Shown: one piece after another, positions 27,778 through 60,340 of the stretch
Layout of the letters: each line of letters opens with the position of its first letter
Numbering within the stretch: the first letter of the stretch is position 1
From: Acidisarcina polymorpha
GTDB lineage: Bacteria > Acidobacteriota > Terriglobia > Terriglobales > Acidobacteriaceae
NCBI RefSeq assembly: GCF_003330725.1
Contig: NZ_CP030840.1
Location: forward strand, 4,526,001-4,590,000
Direction: 5' to 3'
DNA length: 64,000 nucleotides
Program-made: the position numbers and the translations under genes
Notes under the pieces: generated by a model
Databases searched by the model: none
Seen by the model: only the letters and a program-made list of their open reading frames with translations
What the model was told of the DNA's origin: nothing

Positions 27778-29829
27778 ATGGTCGAACCATCCCCCAACAT
27801 CCAGCCATCCGAGAAGCTGCCTGAAGACCGGCTTGATTCGTGGAAAGAGATCGCGGAATACCTCAACCGTGATGTGACGACAGTCCAGCGCTGGGAGAAG
27901 CGGGAGGGGATGCCCGTTCATCGGCATGTGCATGGGAGGATGGGCTCCGTCTACGCGTCCCGCGCGGACCTGGAGGCGTGGATGCGCAGCCGAAATCTTC
28001 GAGCTCCACAGGAGAACGCGGAGAATGGCGTATTGCCGGCCCCTCGGATCCGACCGATCGAGGCGGCGGTGTCGAATTCGCGAAGCAAATGGAAATTATT
28101 GGTATCGTTTGCAGCAACGGTAGCCACGCTGGCGATTGCCGCCGGCTGGTGGCTTCAGAGAACCGAACACTTCTGGCGAGACCCCCTCGCTAATGCACGA
28201 TTTCAGACGGTTACGGATTTTGGCGGGCTGGAGCAGGCTGCCGCGGTCTCCCGAGACGGTCATTTGGTGGCGTTTCTGTCAGACCGGGATGGACCGATGG
28301 ACGTCTGGGTAACGCAGGTTGGATCGGGCGAGTTCCATAACCTCACCCATGGGACCGTTTCGGACCTCGTAAATCCGTCCATTCGAACCCTGGGGTTCTC
28401 GCCGGATGGGTCCCTGGTCACCTTCTGGGTTCGCAAACAAAACTGCCCGGGTAGCAGCGGCATCAGCGTCTGGTCAGTGCCTACACTGGGCGGTGAACCG
28501 CGACCCTACCTCGAAGGCGTGGCAGAGTTCGACTGGTCGCGCGATGGCAGCCGTCTTGCGTATCACACGTCGGCGCCTGGAGACCCTCTTTTCGTCTTGG
28601 ACGGTGGGTTCCAATCTAAGCAGCGACCCATCTTTACCGCGCCTGCCGGACTCCACGCCCACTTTCCGTTGTGGGCGCCCGACGCGGCATTTATCTACTT
28701 CATTCAGGGCGAGCTTCCCGACAAACTGGACATCTGGCGTATCCGGCCGGAAGGAGGCGCCCCTGAACGGGTCACAGCGCAGAATGCGCGAGTGACTTAT
28801 CCGGTCTTGTTGAATAGGCGCACTCTAATTTATCTCGCCAATGATCCTGATGATTCAGGGCCGTGGCTTTATAGCCTGGACGTCGAGCGCCGCATTCCTC
28901 ACCGGCTGACCTCTGACCTTGAGCGATACACATCACTGGCAGCCAGCGCTGATGGTAAACGTCTAGTTACTACGCGTACCACTCCAGAAAGAACACTTTG
29001 GCGCATGCGCATCACTGATTCTCCGGAAGGGGCATCGGAGGCTGAGCGCATCCTGCTGACGACCAGTCCTGGATTCTCCCCGCGACTAGGTCCCAACTAT
29101 CTTCTGTATGTTTCTGCCACCGGCACGGGGGACCGCATCTGGAAACTTGCCGATGGTAGAGGCACAGAGTTGTGGCGGGGGGAGGGGGCGAGGGTCTTTG
29201 GCGGGCCCGCCATCTCCGCCGATGGGCAATATGTCGCTTTCTCAGTCCGGCAACACGGGCAAAGGCTCCTATACGCGATGAAGTCCGACGGTACGGATGC
29301 ACGAGTGGTGGCTGATTCGCTTGATCTTCAAGGGAATCCAGTGTGGTCGCCCGATGGCCAATCGATCACGACGGCCATCACCGATCACGGCGCCCCAGAT
29401 CTGTTTCGAGTACCAATTGATGGCCGCCCTCCAATTCCCCTTGCTGGTGAATACTCCGTCGATCCCGCGTGGTCGCCCGACGGCCGCTTTGTTGTTTATT
29501 CGGGGCCCGACATTGGCACCACATTTTCTTTGAAAGCCGTCACGGCTGAGGGCGCACCGTATTCGCTTCCCGCCCTGACTCTGACCCGCGGGGCTCGTCG
29601 CGTGGCGCTGCTGCAGGGCGGACGCGCACTCGTGCTTCTGCGCGGTGAGATTCAACATAAGGATCTCTGGCTGATCGACCTTAAGAGGGGTGTCCAGCGG
29701 CAGTTGACTCACCTCGCTCCCGAATTCGACATTCAGGATTTTGATATCTCGACAGACGGTCGTGAAGTTGTCGTCGAACGGGTGCAGGAACGCTCGAACC
29801 TGGTACTGCTGGATCTACCGCGACCCTGA
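27778..29829 (+). CDS. HTH-transmembrane-PD40 beta-propeller protein
   Basis: 683 residues. N-terminal DNA-binding part ('WKEIAEYLNRDVTTVQRW', 'REGMPVHRHVHGRMGSVYAS', about residues 20-75); one membrane helix near 105-125 ('LLVSFAATVATLAIAAGWW'); then a long periplasmic TolB/WD40-like propeller with repeated PD40 signatures 'FSPDGSLVTFW', 'WSRDGSRLAYH', 'WSPDGQSITTA', 'WSPDGRFVVYS'. This architecture, frequent in Acidobacteria, looks like a membrane-bound transcription regulator that senses with its propeller, analogous to CadC; that role is inference. ATG 27778 follows GGAGCG. The neighbouring divergent secreted protein is a possible target or ligand. Confidence 0.9.
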   Translation: MVEPSPNIQPSEKLPEDRLDSWKEIAEYLNRDVTTVQRWEKREGMPVHRHVHGRMGSVYASRADLEAWMRSRNLRAPQENAENGVLPAPRIRPIEAAVSNSRSKWKLLVSFAATVATLAIAAGWWLQRTEHFWRDPLANARFQTVTDFGGLEQAAAVSRDGHLVAFLSDRDGPMDVWVTQVGSGEFHNLTHGTVSDLVNPSIRTLGFSPDGSLVTFWVRKQNCPGSSGISVWSVPTLGGEPRPYLEGVAEFDWSRDGSRLAYHTSAPGDPLFVLDGGFQSKQRPIFTAPAGLHAHFPLWAPDAAFIYFIQGELPDKLDIWRIRPEGGAPERVTAQNARVTYPVLLNRRTLIYLANDPDDSGPWLYSLDVERRIPHRLTSDLERYTSLAASADGKRLVTTRTTPERTLWRMRITDSPEGASEAERILLTTSPGFSPRLGPNYLLYVSATGTGDRIWKLADGRGTELWRGEGARVFGGPAISADGQYVAFSVRQHGQRLLYAMKSDGTDARVVADSLDLQGNPVWSPDGQSITTAITDHGAPDLFRVPIDGRPPIPLAGEYSVDPAWSPDGRFVVYSGPDIGTTFSLKAVTAEGAPYSLPALTLTRGARRVALLQGGRALVLLRGEIQHKDLWLIDLKRGVQRQLTHLAPEFDIQDFDISTDGREVVVERVQERSNLVLLDLPRP

Positions 29830-30069
29830 TCCGGCACGAGTTTCGATTTCCCGCTCAGCACATCCGGCTGCCTGACCCCTTAATGCTTGTGGCGTTCACG
29901 CGCCCCGCGAAAGCTGCAAATCCTAACGCAACCCGGCGATCCATAAAGCTCGTGAGGAATCCAGTTCCTCTCCACTTGCGAGGAGTTCGTGCAGCAATCC
30001 GCGAGGAAGGTTCATCTGCCTGCAGATTGCTTGCCGTGCTCTGTTGTCCAAGTTCTGACATTGCCTCTA
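29830..30069. other. Intergenic region between convergent genes
   Basis: About 240 bases with no gene seen between the PD40 protein and the radical SAM gene. No strong T-tailed terminator hairpin is evident. Confidence 0.5.
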
Positions 30070-31209
30070 TTAAGCTTCCAGCTGGCTCCCCGAATTGAGA
30101 TTGTTGTGGATGTCCCACGCGGCCTCGGCCATGCGCGCCCACATCTTGGGCGTACGGAAGATAGCGGGGCTGATGAAGCAGTGATGGTAGCAGCCTTTAC
30201 ATTCCGGCACCTGGCCACTCGTAGCGCGAAAATGATTTGCTTTGCCTCCAAACCAGATTTTTCGGAAATCGAAAGCGTGGTCCCGAAGATTGCCCAACAC
30301 ATCGCCGCGGAGTTCACACCCGGCGACGTCGCCAGTGGGATAGATGACAGCAGTCTCACGGCCGCCTGCGCATAGGAGTGGGGCGGTCTTGGAGTGACTG
30401 GTCTCGGCGACAATATCTCTCGAGACCTTCTCCTTGGAGTGCACGAGAAAGTCCCACGGAGTGAATTCCCCCGTCCGATCGGTGCCCTTGAGCCAGGGCG
30501 AATCGCGATCAATGACGCTGAGGTAGGTGGTTTTACAGACGTCGTCGATCGTCTTTGCGTTGAGAGGGTTTCCTCGCACCAGTATGGGCTTGAGTACATC
30601 AACAGGCAGATTGGCGCGGACCCAGCGTGCCGCCTCGCCGACATTTTTATAATTCATACCGTGCACGGTCATCCCGATATCGACTCGCAGGTTGGGATAT
30701 TGTTTGCGAAGCTCGGCAAGTTCGCGCACGGTGGCGACCACCTTATCGAAGAGGCCAGGGATCCCCCGCAATTTGTCGTGATCTTCGCCGAGGCCATCGA
30801 GTGAGATCCCTATCTTTACCTTCTGCCCAGGGCATCGTTTCAGGATTTCAGTCACATGTTCAACGATTCTTGCGGTGGCATGCCCGAGCATGCAGAAAGT
30901 CATATTTGCGGGGCGGCAGTACGAGTAGAATCGCTCGACGATATCAGGGAGATCCTTGCGGAGTTCGGGGCTGCCTCCAGTAAAGGTGACTTGCAGCATC
31001 GGGCCGAGGTTCTTTGCCAGGCTGTCGAATTCGGGAACGGAGAGCTCCTCTTTGACCTTGGTATTGAGTTCGCTCCAGTAAAAACAATGCTCGCACTTCG
31101 CATTACAGCGATTAGTGACGAACATGAGCAGATAGACCGGCATCTGTGCGCCAGGCGCCATTAACCGTTTCAAAGATGTTGCCCTTTGGCGCAATGGTGT
31201 CATTAGCAT
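30070..31209 (-). CDS. Radical SAM protein with SPASM-like C-terminus
   Basis: 379 residues. The radical SAM cluster motif is 'TNRCNAKCEHCFYW' (C35, C39, C42), followed by the SAM-binding 'VTFTGGSPELRKDL' and 'KIGISLDGLGEDHD'. The C-terminal part has additional Cys ('APLLCAGGRETAVIYPTGDV', 'AGCELRGDVLGN', 'PECKGCYHHCF'), as in SPASM/twitch proteins that bind one or two auxiliary clusters and modify peptides or sugars. The start is ATG 31209 because AAAGGGA lies 7 bases upstream; the frame extends further but overlaps the GT2 end. It follows the glycosyltransferase by 13 bases, so one operon. Substrate unknown; peptide modification or a glycolipid step are both possible. Confidence 0.92.
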   Translation of the reverse strand: MLMTPLRQRATSLKRLMAPGAQMPVYLLMFVTNRCNAKCEHCFYWSELNTKVKEELSVPEFDSLAKNLGPMLQVTFTGGSPELRKDLPDIVERFYSYCRPANMTFCMLGHATARIVEHVTEILKRCPGQKVKIGISLDGLGEDHDKLRGIPGLFDKVVATVRELAELRKQYPNLRVDIGMTVHGMNYKNVGEAARWVRANLPVDVLKPILVRGNPLNAKTIDDVCKTTYLSVIDRDSPWLKGTDRTGEFTPWDFLVHSKEKVSRDIVAETSHSKTAPLLCAGGRETAVIYPTGDVAGCELRGDVLGNLRDHAFDFRKIWFGGKANHFRATSGQVPECKGCYHHCFISPAIFRTPKMWARMAEAAWDIHNNLNSGSQLEA

Positions 31210-31222
31210 GGTTGTATCCCTT

Positions 31223-32530
31223 TCAAATCGATAAGCGGCTGTGGAGATATTCTTCATCGTGGACTCTGTCGTCTATTTCCAGAGGAACCTCATTGCTGGT
31301 TTCGTTGGTTGCAGCACGCTGGCTGCGGACGAAAAAGCGGCGATAGATGCCGGTGATAAAGCAACCGGACCTGGTTGCGTCCAAGAGAAACATTAGACCG
31401 CAGGCTGGGAAGACGAAGGACACCCCCTGCGAAGAGAAGACACGCAAAACGTCGGCGCGTGTCGACAGATAAAGGGCCGCAAGCAGACTGAAGATAATGC
31501 TTTCGTGCATTGGTGCGAAAGCAAAGGGCATCGCAAGCAGCGCAGCTATGAGCATCGTTGCCGATCCGACTGCCAGCATGTCGCGGCCGGTGGCGTGGCG
31601 ATTCTCCGACAGCGATCCGTCAGATTCGAAATGATTCTCCATTGCCAAGAGGCCCTTTCGCCAGTCGTTTTTCAGTAGTTGCCAGAGTGAGAGCAGATGG
31701 CGGTGGTCGCCTAGGGCCGCGGGCACAGCGAGGACGCGAAACCCGCTTTCGGTCAGGCGGCGACCGAGGTCGGTATCTTCCCCGCCAGCCCCTTTGAAGC
31801 GAGGATCGAAGCCTACCATCCGTCGAAAAACACAAGCATCGATCGCTCCGATCGCGGTCCAGAATTCGTTTTGCAAATAACCGGCGCGCCGCTGATAGAT
31901 CTTCGAGATGTAGAGCTGCTTGTACCGGGCAGCAAAGGGCAGATCACGAACATTTCTGGAGTAGTTGCCGACGGTTGCCTCGGCAGAAGAGGAGCACAAC
32001 GGCTCGATGAGAGTCTCGATACATCGCGAGTCGACCAGAACATCGGCATCAATGAAAACGAGAAAGCTCCCGGTGAAATCCTCTGCTCCGCGATTTCGCG
32101 CCACTGCGGCGCTGCCGCTTCCTCCAGTGCTGAGAATGGCGGCCGGTAATCCAGAGAGGATTTCTTCCAGATCGTCGTTGCCGCCATCGTCCACGACGAT
32201 AACTTCAAGAGTGAATGGCCCGCGCGATGCTAAGACAGCGAGGACGGCGTATCGGATCAGTCCGGTGGCCCGACACGCGGGAATGACCACGCGCACAAGA
32301 GGCACAATTCGGTCGTCAGAAGAAGATGGGCTGCGCCGCAAGACGCGATGTTGAGCGTCCTCGTCGTAGCTCTCGCCATCTCTCATCGAGAGGGCTGTTA
32401 TATCACGCGGACACGGCTGGTCATTGCCGGGAAAGGTCATGGCGCCCCAGTAGGTCTTGCTTTGCAGATTGAGCGAACCCCGTAAACATAGATTTAAGTG
32501 GTTTGTGACACAAGAGGCCGAATGACTCAT
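31223..32530 (-). CDS. Family 2 glycosyltransferase with C-terminal membrane helices
   Basis: 435 residues. The GT-A catalytic domain begins near residue 78: 'VRVVIPACRATGLIRYAVLA', 'LEVIVVDDGGNDDLEEIL', 'AVARNRGAEDFTGSFLVFID' with the metal-binding D-A-D, and the acceptor-site 'GGEDTDLGRRLTESGF'. Two or three membrane helices follow ('SATMLIAALLAMPFAFAP', 'VSFVFPACGLMFLL'). The N-terminal 75 residues are polar and of doubtful value; ATG 32440 is an alternative start. At 32530 the start lies 4 bases after a 13-codon ORF, suggesting coupled translation. Its partner radical SAM gene follows at once. Mycofactocin-type clusters pair a radical SAM enzyme with a GT2, but no MftA/MftB gene is visible here. 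Confidence 0.9.
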   Translation of the reverse strand: MSHSASCVTNHLNLCLRGSLNLQSKTYWGAMTFPGNDQPCPRDITALSMRDGESYDEDAQHRVLRRSPSSSDDRIVPLVRVVIPACRATGLIRYAVLAVLASRGPFTLEVIVVDDGGNDDLEEILSGLPAAILSTGGSGSAAVARNRGAEDFTGSFLVFIDADVLVDSRCIETLIEPLCSSSAEATVGNYSRNVRDLPFAARYKQLYISKIYQRRAGYLQNEFWTAIGAIDACVFRRMVGFDPRFKGAGGEDTDLGRRLTESGFRVLAVPAALGDHRHLLSLWQLLKNDWRKGLLAMENHFESDGSLSENRHATGRDMLAVGSATMLIAALLAMPFAFAPMHESIIFSLLAALYLSTRADVLRVFSSQGVSFVFPACGLMFLLDATRSGCFITGIYRRFFVRSQRAATNETSNEVPLEIDDRVHDEEYLHSRLSI

Positions 32531-32534
32531 ATAG

Positions 32535-32576
32535 TTAGCCCAGTTTCCGTACGGGAGAAGCGGGTGCTATTAACAT
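32535..32576 (-). CDS. 13-codon ORF leading the GT2/radical SAM operon
   Basis: ATG 32576 follows GAAAGGGAGACAACC and opens a 13-codon frame ending 4 bases before the GT2 start. The region TTTGAAAGGGAGACAACC plus ATG is nearly the same as that in front of the radical SAM gene (TTTGAAAGGGATACAACC plus ATG), and the first codons are also alike (MLIAP vs MLMTP). It may be a leader peptide for coupled translation, a truncated copy of the radical SAM start, or both. Too short to judge as a peptide precursor. Confidence 0.4.
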   Translation of the reverse strand: MLIAPASPVRKLG

Positions 32577-32577
32577 G

Positions 32578-33612
32578 GTTGTCTCCCTTTCAAATGGCAT
32601 GACTAGTCTGCTGCATGAGTTGCAGATATGGCGGCTGACCGAGCACGGAGGACAGTTTCGAGAAATAGGGGTCGACTGAGCTGACCGCCGCGCCAGTCAC
32701 GGTCTAGGTGCAAGCTGCCGCCTTCATCCCTGATTTTCGGGGCATACTCTTTCGACAATGAAGACTGGCCAGCAAGATCGGCAGTATTGCCTGGGCCGAC
32801 GACCTGGAAATGTGCTTTGTTCTGAAGTGGCTCCGAACAAGGCACCCGGGGCTCTGATCAGATTGGACGCGCATTATTCATAGCGGAGAGCCTCGGCGGG
32901 TGAAACGGTGATGGCGTGGCGGGCGGGCACAAAGCAGGCGAGGAGCGCGCTGAGAGAGAGGAGCACCATCGATCTGAAGTGTTGTGTTGCCCTCGAAGAT
33001 TTCACCAGGGGGTACGAACACATGGGGAGTAATTGTGGCAACATCCCGCTGGGTCGCCACACTCGCACCATAAAGATCGTTTCGGATAGCGTCGGCAGTT
33101 GCTTGTTGAGGTCATCGTCATTTCTCTCTGCCGGAGAATAGTCGGCGCTTGGTCGTTATGACCCACAAGAGTCGGAACATTTTGTTGAGCTGGCGTACTG
33201 CTGGGCGGAACGACGCCGGCCCCGAGACGAAAGTAAGTGCCAGTCTTCGAGGAATAGTCACGAATGCAATTTGTTTGATGTCTCTCAGTATCAGCTTTGT
33301 CTGGTCCTCCCACCGAATTGAAATGGGCGGACTCACGCCAATCGCCGTAAAGGTGAGTCTGCTTGGAAGAGACATTCGCACATGGTTCTCCGGACGTTCC
33401 CGATCTATCGATGGGATGTGCGAAGAGAGCCGCGGTTTCGGCCGTAAACCTTCGTTCGCGTGAATCACAAAATTCCGACAGTCTTTAGCCGCTTTTGGCA
33501 AGTTGATCACTTGACGTGGGAGGCAGATATTTAGAGATGGGCAACAAATCATCAACACAGTTCATCGCAAGCTTCATCCGACTTCTCAAGTGGGTTTTGA
33601 TACGCGAAACGG
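32578..33612. other. Gene-poor kilobase with permease remnant
   Basis: Apart from the ADOP tail at 32874-32975 nothing here is convincing. Overlapping frames at 33118-33558 (-) and 33149-33463 (+) have neither ribosome site nor known motif. A frame at 32603-32845 (-) without proper start could be the end of a lost gene. Confidence 0.5.
32874..32975 (-). pseudogene. C-terminal remnant of an ADOP/MacB-like permease
   Basis: 33 codons reading 'VLLSLSALLACFVPARHAI' and 'VSPAEALRYE' to a TAA. This is the typical last transmembrane helix and cytoplasmic tail of an ADOP family permease ('ALLACFVPARRA...DPM.ALRYE'). The remaining about 800 codons are absent; the sequence upstream is unrelated. It is a second relic of this permease family in the window, on the other strand from the first. 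Confidence 0.78.
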
Positions 33613-34567
33613 TTAGGTCGCTTTCAAGGGAAGCACCCAGTATGGATCGTTGGACGGAATCCACTCGATCGGAACTTCCGGAACCAGCGGCATCAGCCAT
33701 GCAGGCGCGCTCTCCTCTGCCCATTCCTCGAACCTCTCGTGAGTCACCGCGATTAGTCCCTGTGGATTCGGCAAACCAAGCGCGATTGCATCGCGCAGAT
33801 AGGGAAAGGCATCGCAATCCTGGGGTTCACTCATTAGGACAACATCGCACGTTTGCAGTGGTTTGAGAATCTCTATTAGTTTGTGTGCACCCAGTCCGAC
33901 CCGCTTTACAAGCAGGTTTGGATCGCCAATGACCCGTACATTTCGTGAGCCCAGTGATGACGCCACGTGACGCGCCACCTGTTTTAGGGTGGTCTCTGGG
34001 ATTGAGTAGGCTATGCCTATCATCTGTCCTTGCACGTCGACTACATGATCCTGCCAGCCGAGCTTTGCGGTTAATCCTGCCATTATAGGATCGGGTCTCA
34101 GGATGTGTTGGCGGTTGTGGAACCGCCACACCACCAGACCGTTCTCTTCGCAAAACTTCCGCTTCGCCACCATGACCGGGTCGGTCTCGAGCGTCCCAGT
34201 AACCTCGAGAGGCTTATCATGTTTGGTGGTCCCGACATCGTCGATATGGTCCCAAAACATTCTTTCGTGGGAAATCACAAAGTTCTTTTTCGCGAGTACC
34301 GCTTTTTTCAAGACTTCGAAAGTGGCCTGAAATGTAAAGACGATGCCCGTGACTAGGGTCCCAGGATCACCATACTTGAAGGTGTCTGGATCCAACCCCG
34401 GGGATCTCAAAAGCCGACCCTTCCGCAGCAACCTTGTTCACGATCCGCTCCACAATATCCTTCGCGGTCGGGCGTTGCAGTTCTGTGGCGTAAGCGTGTG
34501 CCAGTCCGCCCTTCATCAGCATCGTGGCACCGACGCCTTGGCCGAACGTCCTGCGAGAAATCAACAT
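33613..34567 (-). pseudogene. Tat-exported NIF3-like protein, one frameshift
   Basis: ATG 34567 starts a twin-arginine leader ('LISRRTFGQGVGATML'), then 'LQRPTAKDIVERIVNKV' and 'AFEIPGVG', at which point the frame ends at 34367. One base away the protein continues: 'LDPDTFKYGDPGTLVTGIVF', 'VISHERMFWDHIDDVG', 'GLTAKLGWQDHVVDVQGQMI', to the stop at 33613. The shift lies in CCCCGGGG around 34399-34406, an error- and slippage-prone run. The NIF3/DUF34 family forms a dinuclear metal-binding barrel; His in 'SHERMFWDH' is a ligand candidate. A Tat-exported form is unusual because NIF3 proteins are normally cytosolic. It overlaps the end region of its paralogue upstream. Confidence 0.82.
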
Positions 34568-34605: not shown

Positions 34606-35439
34606 TTATGCAAGCCAACAGAGTTCATGCGAAGAGGGTTTCGCTTCGATAGGCATACCCGGCAACATGCCCTTCAGCCACCCTGTCAGTGCAACAGCGC
34701 CGGGATAGTCGGACTCTTCGTAGCCGACCTGCACAAGGCTTATACCGCGACCGGCAGTGATCGCATCCCGGATGTAAGTGGTGCAGTGATCGACTTCTGG
34801 TGTGTTTCCAGTGATGATGCAATCGACCCTGGGGTCGCGCAGTACATTGCTTAGGACGAGCGTGGGATACGCGAAGCCATGGATCACCGCGACACGTGTA
34901 ATCGGCTGATTCGGGTCGCCCACCATTCGTAGCGTGTTTGACTCCAAACGTGTGGAGGAGAAGGTAGCAAGCTCTAAGAGGGTGTTCTTGGGAATGTTGC
35001 AGAAGGCTGTAGCCCACTGGTCGCCAGGGTTTTCGGGTTCCGGCTGCCAGCCAAGCTCCCTGGCCAACGCATTTGAGAACCACTTGGGTCGAGCCGTGTC
35101 CCAGAGGGTTGCCAAGCGAATAATAAGCAGGTGGTGGTCTTGAATTAGCTGCCGCTTGGCCTTAAGGACAAGGTCACCCGCCATCGCATCCTTCAGACCC
35201 ACAGACAGATACTCGCCATAGAGATAAAAGGGATGTTCCCTGCAGATAATGCAATTCTTCCCGGTCCGGATCGCCAAGCGAATTGCGTCTACCGAGGGCT
35301 CGTTGGCAACCAGAATGCCTGAGACGGTATCATCATCGGAACCCGTAATGATTCCTTCATACATGGCATCTTTGTGCCGCTCCCCCAGCATTGTGTGAAG
35401 CCTATTAATCAATTCCCAGCTTGTCATTTGAGGTAACAT
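34606..35439 (-). CDS. NIF3-like (DUF34) dinuclear-metal protein
   Basis: 277 residues. NIF3/DUF34-type fold: 'DAIRLAIRTGKNCIICREHP', 'NALARELGWQPEPENPGDQW' and 'GFAYPTLVLSNVLRDPRVDC', aligned with the exported paralogue just downstream ('LKKAVLAKKNFVISHERMFW'). His ligands differ between the two ('CREHPFY' here). Family members are cytosolic hexamers of uncertain function (proposed GTP cyclohydrolase-like or metal-insertase roles). ATG 35439 follows GAGAGGGAAAG; ATG 35424 is possible too. No leader is visible, so this copy would be cytoplasmic. Operon with the frameshifted paralogue. Confidence 0.78.
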   Translation of the reverse strand: MLPQMTSWELINRLHTMLGERHKDAMYEGIITGSDDDTVSGILVANEPSVDAIRLAIRTGKNCIICREHPFYLYGEYLSVGLKDAMAGDLVLKAKRQLIQDHHLLIIRLATLWDTARPKWFSNALARELGWQPEPENPGDQWATAFCNIPKNTLLELATFSSTRLESNTLRMVGDPNQPITRVAVIHGFAYPTLVLSNVLRDPRVDCIITGNTPEVDHCTTYIRDAITAGRGISLVQVGYEESDYPGAVALTGWLKGMLPGMPIEAKPSSHELCWLA

Positions 35440-35533: not shown

Positions 35534-35815
35534 TTACGCAGATGCGATGGCGTCTCGGCGGACCTGCGAAAGTGATCCGATGAGGAAGAGACGGACGGCT
35601 CCCATGAAGGAGCGCGCGTTTGTTGAGGCCGCGGAGACGACACCGGTGTTCACGTTGGTTAGGTTGACGGTGGCTCCCGGGACTGCTGCGCTGCTGGCAT
35701 CGACGATCGATCCAGTGACCGTGGCACTGGTGATCTGCCCGAAGGCACGCGGAGAAATGAGGGATAGAGAGAGGGCTATTGCCCAGAGAGAGAGATGGTG
35801 AAACCTAAAGATCAC
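35534..35815 (-). pseudogene. 5' remnant of a TonB-dependent receptor gene
   Basis: From ATG 35815: a signal peptide ('LSLWAIALSLSLISPRAFGQ'), then the start of a carboxypeptidase-regulatory-like domain ('TGSIVDASSAAVPGATVNLT', 'NTGVVSAASTNA'). After about 70 residues the similarity stops and the frame ends within 24 codons. Receptors of this type are about 1000 residues or more, so the rest has been deleted. It lies upstream of the NIF3-like pair on the same strand; the pair may once have been downstream of a full receptor gene. Confidence 0.82.
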
Positions 35816-37339: not shown

Positions 37340-38191
37340 TCACAACTTGCGAAACTTGTTGTGTGACTGCTGAGACGACCTGAATTCCGTCGGTCTTTGC
37401 GAGAATTGCTGGCGGAAGGCCGAGGCGAAATGAGACGCGCTTCTGAAACCGCAAGTTAGAGCAATCTCCAAGGCGCTCTTGTCTGTGTGGCATAGCATCG
37501 ATCTCGCTGACTGCATTCTCAAATGCAGAACATGCCGGTGCGGGGACATACCCAAAGCTTTCCTGAATAAAGCCGCGAAGTGAAACTGACTGATGCCAGC
37601 CTCCCTAGAGAGGACTCGAAGGTCGAGGTCGTCCGACAAGTGGGCGTCGATGTATTCCAGGACTCTTATCAAGCGGTAGTCGGAGATTCGCTCACGAGCC
37701 AGCGACTTTTGCCACTCGAAACCTTTGGATGACCCAAGTAGAAGATGTGCAGCAAGCCACTGTGCTGAGGCCTGAGCGTAAAAATCCGGCGCTCCGCCCT
37801 TGAGAGCGGCGAGCACTGACAAACCGAAGCTCGTGATCACTGGATCATCCAAAAACGGAATCGCGCTTAGAGCTGTTTGACTCGCGCTACTGGGCTTGCA
37901 TATTTCTTGTGCAACAAAATCGACAGTATCTTGCGGCAACATTAAGATGAGAGAGGAATAACTCCTCTGGTCCTCTAGGCGGAGCCGTACGACACTTTCA
38001 TGTCCTACAGGATGGAAAGTGCCCGTTCCTCGGAAGTAGTGCGTCATGCCACGCCATTTCCCCTCGGAAAATGAATCCACCTTGACGCTTCCGTCGAGAA
38101 GCAAGCATATTGCCGGATCACGAAGTGCCGGCACTTCGATCGCTCTCCATAAGGCTGCTGCTCCTGAACGAGTACATTCAGCGATCGCCAA
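37340..38191 (-). CDS. AraC-family transcriptional regulator
   Basis: 283 residues. The N-terminal effector region is followed by the double HTH in the last 110 residues: 'DLRVLSREAGISQFHFAALF', 'ALEIALTCGFRSASHFASAF', 'FSQRPTEFRSSQQ'. No good ribosome site is seen at the start. A paralogue consisting of only the DNA-binding half lies 0.9 kb upstream (39119-39565). Such AraC proteins often control SDR and other oxidoreductase genes in this group, so the promoters at 44.9 and 55.7 kb are candidate targets (inference). Confidence 0.94.
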   Translation of the reverse strand: MAIAECTRSGAAALWRAIEVPALRDPAICLLLDGSVKVDSFSEGKWRGMTHYFRGTGTFHPVGHESVVRLRLEDQRSYSSLILMLPQDTVDFVAQEICKPSSASQTALSAIPFLDDPVITSFGLSVLAALKGGAPDFYAQASAQWLAAHLLLGSSKGFEWQKSLARERISDYRLIRVLEYIDAHLSDDLDLRVLSREAGISQFHFAALFRKALGMSPHRHVLHLRMQSARSMLCHTDKSALEIALTCGFRSASHFASAFRQQFSQRPTEFRSSQQSHNKFRKL

Positions 38192-39118: not shown

Positions 39119-39565
39119 TTACGATTTGTCAGACCTATTGTGTGACTGCTGAGATGATCTGAACTCCGTCGGGCTCTGTGAAAATTTTCGGCGGAATGCG
39201 GCCGAGAAGTGACTTGAGCTTTTGAAACCGCAGGTTAAAGCGATCTCAAAGGCGCTCTTGTCTTTACGGCATAGCATGGATCTCGCTGCTTGCAATCTCA
39301 AATGTAGAATATGCTGATGTGGCGACCTGCCTACGGCTTTCCGAAACAAAGCCGCAAAGTGAAACTGGCTGATGCCGGCCTCCCTGGAAAGGGCGCGAAG
39401 GTCGAGGTGGTCCGACAAATGTGTGTCGATGTACTCCAGTACCCTCACCAAACGATAGTCAGAGGTTCGCTCGCCAGCAAGCGATTTGTGCCAAACATCA
39501 CGCTGGGTGTCGTTCGGAGGATCTGCTCCAGCCAATGCTTGCGGGTTTTCCGTGTTTTCTGCCAT
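39119..39565 (-). CDS. AraC-type DNA-binding domain protein, truncated paralogue
   Basis: 148 residues that align from residue 26 to the end with the C-terminal half of the AraC regulator at 37340-38191 (for example 'DYRLVRVLEYIDTHLSDHLD' against 'DYRLIRVLEYIDAHLSDDLD', and the shared ending 'PTEFRSSQQSHN'). The effector domain is missing; the N-terminal 25 residues are unrelated. It may be a 5'-truncated gene still expressed as a constitutive or competing DNA binder, or a relic. It is divergent from a TetR gene whose operators lie between them. Confidence 0.8.
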   Translation of the reverse strand: MAENTENPQALAGADPPNDTQRDVWHKSLAGERTSDYRLVRVLEYIDTHLSDHLDLRALSREAGISQFHFAALFRKAVGRSPHQHILHLRLQAARSMLCRKDKSAFEIALTCGFKSSSHFSAAFRRKFSQSPTEFRSSQQSHNRSDKS

Positions 39566-57409: not shown

Positions 57410-58864
57410 TTATTGAGAAGAGTGCCCGTCGAGATGTAGACGTGAAGAAACGTCAGTCCCGACGGGAGGGTGCAGGTTTCGAACAGGGCTCGCCATCTCG
57501 AGCAGAGAGGCAAGGTGCAGCACGACCGACTCGGCAAACCAGCCCGACACTAATTGCACTCCGAGTGGCAATCCCTCCCCGCTCGTCCCGAACCTAATCG
57601 ACAGTGCGGGTAGCCCGGTGATGTTGAACGGTACGGTTGCTCCGAGCATGTTAGTGGCGGGAACGGTTTCGCCATTGATGACAAACTCCGAGAGGCCATG
57701 CACAGGCGCTGGAATGGGTGTCACAGGACAGAGCAATGCATCGTAACGTTGAAAATACTTGACGAACTGATCTCTCAGCCGCTCTGCTTGCTGCTCCGCC
57801 TGGACATAGTCCTTCATGGATGTATCGGGATTTGCAAGGACCCCCTGAACATATTTGAATACTTTGCCCTCCTGGTTTTTCGTCGCTTCCCTGAACGCGG
57901 GCTTCGCTTCCATCTTTTGTAGCTTGAAGAAGACATCGATGGAACTGATCAGTTCAAGTGCAGGCAGCTGTACCGGATCTACGATGCACCCAGCCGAACT
58001 CAGCGCCGCCGCGGCTGCCTTCACCGTGGCGGCGACCTCGTGGTCAATCGTTCCAAAACCCAGCTCGACGAGCCAGCCGACCCGAAGAGGCTGATTAGAC
58101 CATGCATCCAGCCCAGAGTCCAGACCGAGGGGCGCTGTAGAAAACCCATCGGCGCCGTCCGGCCCGGCTAAGAGTGAATAAGCTAACGCAAGATCGCGAA
58201 CACTGCGTGCCATTGGACCCACATGCCAAAAGCGACGCGGCACCCGCGGCCACAGACCCGTCATCGGAATGCGACCGTGTGTTGCTTTCAGAGCGACGAT
58301 ACCGGTGTGCGCCGCCGGGCCACGCAGTGAGATGGCGACGTCACTACCAAGACCCAGCGGTGACAGGCCTGCTGCGATGGACGCCGACTCTCCCCCGCTG
58401 GAACCGCCGGGAGTGTGATTGAGATTCCAGGGGTTGTTCGTTCGACCAGTGAGAAGATTGTCTGTTTCGGTCGCGTACGAGAACTCGGGAAGATTGGTTT
58501 TCGCAAGCAGGATCGCACCGGCGCTTTTCAAACGCGCGACGGATAAAGCATCGGTCTCCGGGATCCGGCCCTTAAAAATTGGTGAGCCACGCTGGGTCAG
58601 GACCCCTGCAGTGTCTATCGAATCCTTTACCGTAAAGGGAACCCCATGGAGGGGTCCGAGTTCTTCCCCGGAAAGAACCACTGCCTCGGCCGCCTTTGCC
58701 ATCTCAAGGGAATTGTCTGCCAGAGTGACGATCGCATTGAGTTTCGGATTGAGTGCCTGCATGCGATCCAGATGTGCTTGGACGACCTCTACTGGAGAGA
58801 CCTCCTTCGTCCGGATGATTTCAGCTAACTTGGTTGCGTCACAATAAATAAGCTCAGAGCACAT
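57410..58864 (-). CDS. Amidase, amidase-signature family (copy 1)
   Basis: 484 residues. The Ser-cisSer-Lys triad is visible: K80 in 'GVPFTVKDSIDTAG', S156 in 'TPGGSSGGESASIAAG', S179 in 'GSDVAISLRGPAAHTG'. Hydrolyses C-N bonds of small amides; the substrate is undetermined. ATG 58864 follows GAAAGGAA. It is a tandem paralogue of the next gene (70 bases apart), with closely similar sequence throughout, for example both contain 'KDSIDTAGVLTQRGSPIFKG'. The two probably form one transcript, upstream copy first. Confidence 0.96.
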   Translation of the reverse strand: MCSELIYCDATKLAEIIRTKEVSPVEVVQAHLDRMQALNPKLNAIVTLADNSLEMAKAAEAVVLSGEELGPLHGVPFTVKDSIDTAGVLTQRGSPIFKGRIPETDALSVARLKSAGAILLAKTNLPEFSYATETDNLLTGRTNNPWNLNHTPGGSSGGESASIAAGLSPLGLGSDVAISLRGPAAHTGIVALKATHGRIPMTGLWPRVPRRFWHVGPMARSVRDLALAYSLLAGPDGADGFSTAPLGLDSGLDAWSNQPLRVGWLVELGFGTIDHEVAATVKAAAAALSSAGCIVDPVQLPALELISSIDVFFKLQKMEAKPAFREATKNQEGKVFKYVQGVLANPDTSMKDYVQAEQQAERLRDQFVKYFQRYDALLCPVTPIPAPVHGLSEFVINGETVPATNMLGATVPFNITGLPALSIRFGTSGEGLPLGVQLVSGWFAESVVLHLASLLEMASPVRNLHPPVGTDVSSRLHLDGHSSQ

Positions 58865-58933: not shown

Positions 58934-60340
58934 CTAGAGGCTTGGGTGAAGATCCCGGACAGGACTGATCGTCTCGAGCAGAGAAGCGAGATATAGGATC
59001 GTCGACTCGGCGTACCACTTGGATACAAGCTGCACTCCAATTGGTAGGCCGTCGTGACTCGTACCGAACCGCATGGACAGTCCCGGCAGTCCGGTCACGT
59101 TAAACGGCACGGTAGCACCTTGGATCTGTACTTCCGGGACGGGCTTACCGTTCACCATGTATTCCGACAGCCCATGTGCATGTGCCGGCACAGGCAGGAC
59201 CGGGCAAAGTAAGGCGTCGTAACGTTCGAAGTAACCGGCAAACCCATCCCTCAACCGCTCGGATGCTTGTTCGGCGTGCACGAAATCCACCATGCTGGTA
59301 TCAGGGGTCGCGAGCATGCCTTTAGAGATTTTGAACATTTCGTTCTCGTGACCGGCGGTGACCTCCGCAAAGGACGGCTTCATCTCCATCACGTGCAAGC
59401 GATTGAATACATCGAGCGCATTGTCCCGTTCCAGTTCCGGGATGCGCACCGGTTCCACAACGCAGCCAACTCCCTGAAGTGCATCAGCTGCCTTCTCTAC
59501 TGTCGCAGCGACTTCAGAATCTATTGGCCCGAATCCCGGTTCGACCAGCCAGCCTACACGAAGTGGACGCCCGGGCTTTGATCCAATACCAGTATCGAAC
59601 CCAAGGGATGTCACAGAAAAACCATCGGCACCGTCTGGACCTACAAGAAGCGAATAGGCTAATGCGATATCACGAACGCTGTGTGCCATCGGCCCAACGT
59701 GCCAATTTCGACGCGGTACCCGACCCCAGATCCCCGTCATCGGAACGCGACCATGAGTCGCTTTGAAGCCGATGACCCCGGTGTTCGCAGCTGGACCGCG
59801 TATCGAGATGGCCAAGTCGGTTGCGAGGCCGAGCGGTGACATCCCGGACGCGATAGCAGCCGACTCACCACCGCTCGAACCACCCGGCGTGCGATCGAGG
59901 TTCCAGGGATTATTTGTCCTTCCCGTAAGCAGGTTATCCGTCTCTGTAAGGTAAGAAAACTCCGGAAGATTGGTCTTCGCCAGCAGGACTGCACCAGCTC
60001 CCTTAATGCGAGCTACGCTTACGGCATCCACGTCCGGAAGGCGGCCCTTAAAAATCGGTGAGCCACGCTGAGTCAGAACCCCGGCGGTATCGATTGAATC
60101 CTTTGCAGTGAACGGAACCCCGTGCAAAGGGCCCACTTCATCACCTCGCAGCACTGCGGCTTCCGCTGCCTTAGCTTCGGCGAGTGCGCCTGCCGCAAGC
60201 GTAACGACGGCGTTAAGTTTCGGGTTCACCGCCTCGATGCGATCGAGATGGGCCTGCACAACCTCCACGGGCGAAACCTCACGTGTGCGAATGAGTTCAG
60301 CCAATCTAGTGGCGTCGGAATATAGGAGTTCAGAGGTCAT
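58934..60340 (-). CDS. Amidase, amidase-signature family (copy 2)
   Basis: 468 residues from ATG 60340, selected by the GAAAGGAAG site 4 bases upstream; a longer frame to 60412 has no homology with copy 1. Triad: K80 ('FTAKDSID'), S156 ('GGSSGGES'), S179 ('DLAISIRGPAANTG'). It is a tandem duplicate of the gene downstream. The conservation of every active-site element in both indicates that both are functional, perhaps with different substrate range. Lies downstream of the tautomerase gene. Confidence 0.96.
   Translation of the reverse strand: MTSELLYSDATRLAELIRTREVSPVEVVQAHLDRIEAVNPKLNAVVTLAAGALAEAKAAEAAVLRGDEVGPLHGVPFTAKDSIDTAGVLTQRGSPIFKGRLPDVDAVSVARIKGAGAVLLAKTNLPEFSYLTETDNLLTGRTNNPWNLDRTPGGSSGGESAAIASGMSPLGLATDLAISIRGPAANTGVIGFKATHGRVPMTGIWGRVPRRNWHVGPMAHSVRDIALAYSLLVGPDGADGFSVTSLGFDTGIGSKPGRPLRVGWLVEPGFGPIDSEVAATVEKAADALQGVGCVVEPVRIPELERDNALDVFNRLHVMEMKPSFAEVTAGHENEMFKISKGMLATPDTSMVDFVHAEQASERLRDGFAGYFERYDALLCPVLPVPAHAHGLSEYMVNGKPVPEVQIQGATVPFNVTGLPGLSMRFGTSHDGLPIGVQLVSKWYAESTILYLASLLETISPVRDLHPSL

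Follow-up and report, generated by a model that had tools for sequence, protein, structure and literature searches.

Why should the translation start of a radical S-adenosylmethionine (SAM) gene occur a second time, ahead of the very gene that precedes it? The question is raised by a stretch of 64,000 nucleotides (nt) of the Acidisarcina polymorpha genome (contig NZ_CP030840.1, positions 4,526,001 to 4,590,000), called the window below, within which all positions are counted. Along its minus strand lie, in this order, a 13-codon open reading frame (ORF) encoding MLIAPASPVRKLG (32535-32576, from the ORF coordinates and translation), a gene for a family 2 glycosyltransferase (GT2; longest frame 31223-32530) and a gene for a 379-residue radical SAM protein (30070-31209, starting at 31209 and ending at 30070), the latter two assigned by Pfam profiles, alignments and structural models. 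At about even chances, we read the locus as a compact two-gene operon, horizontally spread, whose products would glycosylate and radically modify a membrane-linked glycan, with the GT2 gene fed by the copied start. The pair and its recurrence in other genomes are observed; the chemistry that we ascribe to it is proposed.

A translation start in two copies

The 33 nt around the radical SAM start (copy 1, 31196-31228, minus strand) take in the overlap with the GT2 stop, the ribosome-binding site (RBS), the first four radical SAM codons and two more bases. They recur, ungapped and with 29 of 33 nt identical, around the start of the 13-codon ORF (copy 2, 32563-32595, minus strand), where a similar RBS is again followed by four codons and two bases; the similarity stops within codon 5. 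A first-pass annotation of this DNA had reported a motif common to both starts. Two copies indeed exist there; the pattern as printed, however, was one base short and in its literal form has no match in the genome. The corrected motif, TTTGAAAGGGA(T/G)ACAACC-ATG, also written TTTGAAAGGGA(T/G)ACAACCATG, sits at both starts and, with up to three mismatches allowed, has exactly two matches in the 7,600,726-base genome (in the window, 2 found against 0.01 expected). Motif scan and 33-nt alignment thus bear out the match between the two start regions. The radical SAM start adjoining the motif is the ATG at 31209, as opposed to the ATG at 31257 that heads the longest ORF, and lies 13 nt beyond the GT2 stop. 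The coordinates also confirm a gap of 4 bases between the end of the small ORF and the GT2 ATG. The starts of the small ORF and of GT2 are 46 nt apart and therefore in different frames; a nonsense mutation splitting one common frame was rejected on this ground.

Direct pairs of 33-mers with at least 28 of 33 identities number nine in the window, this one included, against none in five mononucleotide shuffles, and several of the other eight lie in paralogous genes. Paralogues sharing 33-mers are found on the minus strand at 37340-38191, a gene that we take to be AraC-like, and then at 39119-39565, the shorter one lacking the N-terminal part; likewise, the tandem ORFs at 57410-58864 and 58934-60340 (minus strand; 484 and 468 residues), likely paralogues, have 33-mer repeats in common.

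Is copy 2 the remnant of something larger? The annotation had suggested that the small ORF might be the residue of a radical SAM gene duplication, and a duplicated GT2-radical SAM unit may be considered as well. Such an origin would fit a repeat that spans a start codon together with coding sequence and that overlaps, in copy 1, the end of GT2, as well as the gene debris nearby: the C-terminal 30 residues of an ADOP-family permease (profile positions 774-803 of 803) survive at 32874-32966 on the minus strand, roughly 300 nt further upstream. However, when the bodies and 3' ends of both genes were compared with the flanks of copy 2 (263 nt on its downstream side and about 1 kb on its upstream side), all scores fell within those of shuffled controls, with 46 to 273 of 300 shuffles scoring equally high. 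No larger duplicated gene is therefore detectable near copy 2, the similarity in the flanks compared is confined to 33 nt, and a duplication residue appears unlikely. What the other readings leave is a copied translation start, of which either copy may be the older.

Two proteins and the recurrence of their pairing

The radical SAM protein matches the Pfam profiles Radical_SAM (54.4 bits) and SPASM (28.4 bits, passing the cut-off of 21.5). In structure alignments, which covered 39 of 81 radical SAM rows (the window protein and 80 others) and 23 of 32 GT2 rows, the CxxxCxxC motif (C35/C39/C42) is present in 39 of 39 rows, as are C280, C298, C337 and C340, which together with C344 (37 of 39 rows; one of the two lacking it is locus L055, introduced below) are the candidate auxiliary-cluster cysteines. 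A full SPASM domain has the seven-cysteine motif CX9-15GX4C-gap-CX2CX5CX3C-gap-C (PMC6231123), whereas the window protein has only C280-x12-G-x4-C298 and C337-x2-C340-x3-C344. The SPASM label given earlier thus holds for the Pfam profile, but the protein does not show the seven-cysteine motif of two-cluster enzymes. Since a full SPASM domain needs seven cysteines, and since a profile of the C-terminal region searched against PDB sequences picks out BtrN alone at an E limit of 0.01 (E 7e-4), the domain would be better named twitch-like; its cysteines suggest one putative auxiliary cluster, as in BtrN. The structural model (predicted local distance difference test, pLDDT, 92.4) starts with a helix at residues 5-17 and reaches the first barrel strand at residue 26. 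Because just this one helix precedes the barrel, the model has no N-terminal peptide-binding (RRE) domain; no search was made for a free-standing RRE elsewhere.

The GGEP motif contributes to SAM binding. At its position all four members of the closest clade, described below, read GGSPE (residues 78-82 in the window protein), as if the glutamate had shifted by two residues. GGSPE occurs in none of 82 other relatives, all of which keep GGE. With this change, the clade lends itself to a natural test of the motif's effect on SAM binding. The third position of the motif is variable across the superfamily and GGEP is not universal: among 44 looser radical SAM matches, nine have GGDP and one has GGRP. 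The PADLOC profile pVip (prokaryotic viperin), which has no stated cut-off, matches residues 29-189 only (E 3.2e-11, 41.2 bits). No NCBIfam match among those listed reaches its cut-off, radical SAM proteins being judged on the best 25 of 42-59 matches.

The partner protein matches Glycos_transf_2 in Pfam (62.1 bits). Its model contains a GT-A domain from about residue 75, followed by long C-terminal helices that look transmembrane, from which we take the protein to be membrane-anchored. With the GT-A fold, a DXD motif (D161 in 22 of 23 rows, D163 in 23 of 23) and a further conserved acidic pair (E251 and D252, 23 of 23), it is a member of GT2. The folds that its model matches include chondroitin polymerase (Z 22.9, 207 residues aligned), hyaluronan synthase (Z 21.8, 305) and PcManGT (Z 21.0, 285).

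A search of the neighbourhoods of relatives, which the annotation had proposed as a check, found the pair to be recurrent. Among the best 80 of at least 517 radical SAM relatives confirmed in a scan of named genomes, 33 have a GT2 gene upstream in the same orientation at a distance of no more than 200 nt, as counted with a profile seeded with five of those 80 loci and the window. A profile made from the window, L053 and L055 only places an adjacent GT2 at 30 loci, and the adjacent GT2 scores best in 12 of the 13 loci that hold several. The closest relatives among the matches listed come from metagenome-assembled genomes (MAGs): two from Kapaibacterium and Ignavibacteria at 56% identity (L053 and L054, almost identical to each other and counted as one lineage) and one from Chloroflexota at 45% (L055), all others reaching at most 36%. 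Together with the window these three form one clade (support 100/100) in which every member has the GT2 paired with the radical SAM gene; in L053, L054 and L055 the two frames overlap. A supported clade of 13 members from other phyla has the GT2 adjacent in nine, while L062, L066 and L068 carry a high-scoring GT2 within 3 kb and L063 begins near a contig end. On a tree with weak deep branches and many long end branches, the adjacency label changes 16 times, at least eight of the changes being forced by supported branches, against a shuffled mean of 26.9. The pairing is thus clustered, yet has been repeatedly gained or lost, which speaks against one old origin.

The two-gene unit is rare, and its occurrence patchy. 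Of 398 sampled genomes of the host family the host alone matches at 1e-35, and of 396 sampled across the phylum 57 do so, the host included, with the others listed at no more than 34% identity (both sets were sampled from larger groups, and at most four candidates were scored per genome). At 1e-60, matches were found in 2 of 296 genomes of the Kapaibacterium MAG's phylum and in 1 of 298 of the Chloroflexota MAG's class, the MAGs themselves included. This patchiness across distant phyla suggests horizontal transfer of the pair. The GC fraction (GT2 core 0.57, radical SAM 0.55, window 0.553) bears no sign of recent transfer. No relative was confirmed on viral contigs, with a scan sensitive to close relatives only, and plasmids gave 31 records, all below 60% identity (among the matches listed, the best near full-length one at 27.4% and partial ones up to 32.1%). 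Four loci from the host family (L034, L035, L037 and L038) carry another radical SAM gene, which shares 27-30% identity with that of the window; judged by eye, a gene resembling those for B12-type binding proteins lies beside it in all four, and NUDIX-like genes occur in L034, L035 and L037.

A proposed role, and other explanations

What could the pair do? The membrane-anchored GT2 would add a sugar to a membrane-linked acceptor, probably a glycolipid or a sugar linked to a lipid; the radical SAM/twitch enzyme might then oxidise, dehydrogenate or decarboxylate the GT2 product or the donated sugar. The 33-nt copy of the radical SAM start, if copied in that direction, would provide a strong ribosome-entry site upstream of GT2: ribosomes would translate 13 codons, stop and possibly restart 4 nt on at GT2, so that near-identical RBSs feed both genes. 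Because the gap is only 4 nt, reinitiation is plausible, and a copied start serving ribosome entry and termination-reinitiation at GT2 may be a reasonable role for the small ORF. Reinitiation from leader ORFs has been proposed for many bacteria, with leader-gene spacings that cluster mainly at 10-11 bp and show a smaller peak at 5 bp (PMC4833913); by the counting of that paper, the present gap corresponds to 5 bp.

The proposed substrate comes from the neighbourhoods of the wider family, where 102 neighbour proteins included 17 GT2, eight PMT_2, eight radical SAM, five epimerase and five GT1 members. These are 102 of 151 ORFs picked, without L053-L055 and ORFs above 900 residues, by a greedy choice in which some frames may be wrong. 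Distant relatives thus do sit amid surface-glycan genes, a setting that the annotation had named as one that could undo its suggestion of a new pathway if the polysaccharide cluster were a well-known one; no cluster that can be named was found, and the closest clade is without one, so that the objection applies only in part. Of the two kinds of new pathway suggested there, a glycolipid or other glycan product is favoured by these neighbourhoods, and a modified peptide is disfavoured, because an N-terminal peptide-binding domain is missing from the model and no precursor came to light.

Several observations weigh against the glycan-modifying operon. Among 15 neighbour proteins scanned at L053, L054 and L055 there is no glycosyltransferase; they are beta-propeller, RtcB, Hen1-like, PKD-domain, dehydrogenase and similar proteins, although genes for a polyprenyl synthetase and a phosphoglucomutase/phosphomannomutase lie near L055 on the opposite strand. 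With no glycan cluster around the pair in its closest clade, the glycan context is one taken over from relatives that share about 30% identity. The folds that the radical SAM model matches best include those of peptide-modifying enzymes, namely SkfB (VIA Z 24.3, root-mean-square deviation 3.0, 282 residues aligned) and SuiB (22.7, 3.4, 293), the latter tying with BlsE (22.2, 3.4, 293) and followed by BtrN (18.3, 2.9, 225), and by whole-protein profile SkfB is the best of 31 PDB sequences. No consensus promoter was found in 29800-33000, the RNA of the tiny ORF folds more weakly than 197 of 200 shuffles (z +1.75), the spacing between small ORF and GT2 is off the main 10-11 bp peak (PMC4833913), and the pairing is not uniform across the tree.

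The main rival is a mycofactocin-like route to a redox cofactor or to another ribosomally synthesized and post-translationally modified peptide (RiPP), in which the radical SAM enzyme would crosslink a short peptide and the GT2 would glycosylate it, the precursor being either the 13-residue peptide or the product of an unlinked gene. MftF, which glycosylates a RiPP cofactor made by a radical SAM enzyme (PMC7491314), heads the NCBIfam matches of the window GT2, and the fold nearest to the radical SAM protein is that of SkfB. The scores, however, are 74.6 bits against a cut-off of 280 for MftF and 41.1 against 265 for MftC; the GT2 proteins of L053 and L055 have as best NCBIfam match the exopolysaccharide enzyme EpsD, also far under its cut-off; and MftB has no match in the host genome, though it has none in any of 14 control genomes either. 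Apart from the missing N-terminal domain, the peptide itself speaks against this route. A scan of ten relatives, L053, L054 and L055 included, found no peptide like MLIAPASPVRKLG upstream of GT2, the best local score being 17 against a self-score of 63. The scan ran from 200 nt upstream to 60 nt inside the longest GT2 frame, took ORFs of 5-45 codons with an RBS-like word, and relied on longest-frame GT2 starts, which may be wrong. For lack of a counterpart in these ten relatives, the earlier idea of a conserved leader, or of a precursor, is unsupported, and we hold the peptide route to be quite improbable.

Two further explanations concern translation of the locus. The copied 33 nt could be a shared cis-element, a translational operator by which one regulator governs both genes, the ORF itself being irrelevant; the near-identical RBS and first codons (29/33) and their two occurrences in the whole genome would suit it. 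Against this, Rfam has no family at E up to 1 in 29000-34500, and no such repeat was met between GT2 and radical SAM, or ahead of GT2, where these regions were read in the three closest relatives, which leaves such an element very doubtful. A riboswitch or structured leader was rejected on the same Rfam result and the weak folding. As for GT2 itself, its true start is uncertain, because residues 1-66 are unconserved and modelled with low confidence (pLDDT below 50); their coding signal is also weak. These residues and the strong RBS at the ATG at 32576 might indicate that GT2 once began where the small ORF now does, until a frameshift severed that start and left GT2 poorly translated or internally started, but the core of GT2 is still an unbroken frame that keeps the conserved acidic residues, and the relatives start near the core, so that this too seems highly unlikely.

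The glycan-modifying operon, then, is the reading that we carry forward. A bolder form of it, in which the small, patchy GGSPE clade with its own GT2 would be a self-contained unit that modifies a membrane-linked sugar by a new radical reaction, its start copied in this host to equalise expression of the two enzymes, we think unlikely. The pair recurs in the same order in many phyla, no NCBIfam model among the matches listed covers it, and no description of it was found in the literature covered (titles and abstract openings, with most subscription journals outside the coverage). In the closest clade it is at its simplest, a pair of genes outside any recognised glycan cluster, and its function is therefore directly testable by expressing two proteins.

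Also on the minus strand of the window are an adjacent gene pair with weak DUF34/NIF3 matches (33613-34431 and 34606-35439) and a 93-residue ORF (35534-35815), presumably cut short, that resembles the N-terminal end of large outer-membrane receptors carrying a carboxypeptidase-like domain.

Comparison with known systems

Which known enzymes does the pair resemble? BtrN, the twitch radical SAM dehydrogenase of butirosin biosynthesis, is alike in that C280 and C298 align with two of its cysteines, which we take to be cluster ligands; it differs in that the profile match stops before C337 and that GGSPE and the GT2 partner belong to the window enzyme. As a twitch enzyme, BtrN has one auxiliary cluster (PMC6231123, PMC9012708). 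The sugar-modifying cytosylglucuronate decarboxylase BlsE matches the fold over nearly its full length, which counts in favour of the proposed reading, but at 19% identity, and the residues of GGEP are crucial in BlsE (PMC3715490), whereas the motif is altered in the window enzyme. The RiPP maturases SkfB and SuiB share with it a radical SAM barrel and a twitch or SPASM domain; SkfB, however, has an N-terminal RRE domain (PMC6231123), which the window model lacks.

The mycofactocin system is similar in having a radical SAM enzyme, MftC, and a GT2, MftF, within one pathway, and dissimilar in that the window proteins score far under both curated cut-offs and no precursor was seen. The tests made place the pair outside the mycofactocin family, though it may work like a GT2 and radical SAM pathway. 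The pairs found among glycan genes (such as L057-L060, L065 and L070) likewise have the GT2 directly upstream, and their radical SAM proteins are 31-36% identical to that of the window over the best segment; they differ from it in keeping GGEP and in being surrounded by other glycosyltransferases, epimerases or PMT-type enzymes.

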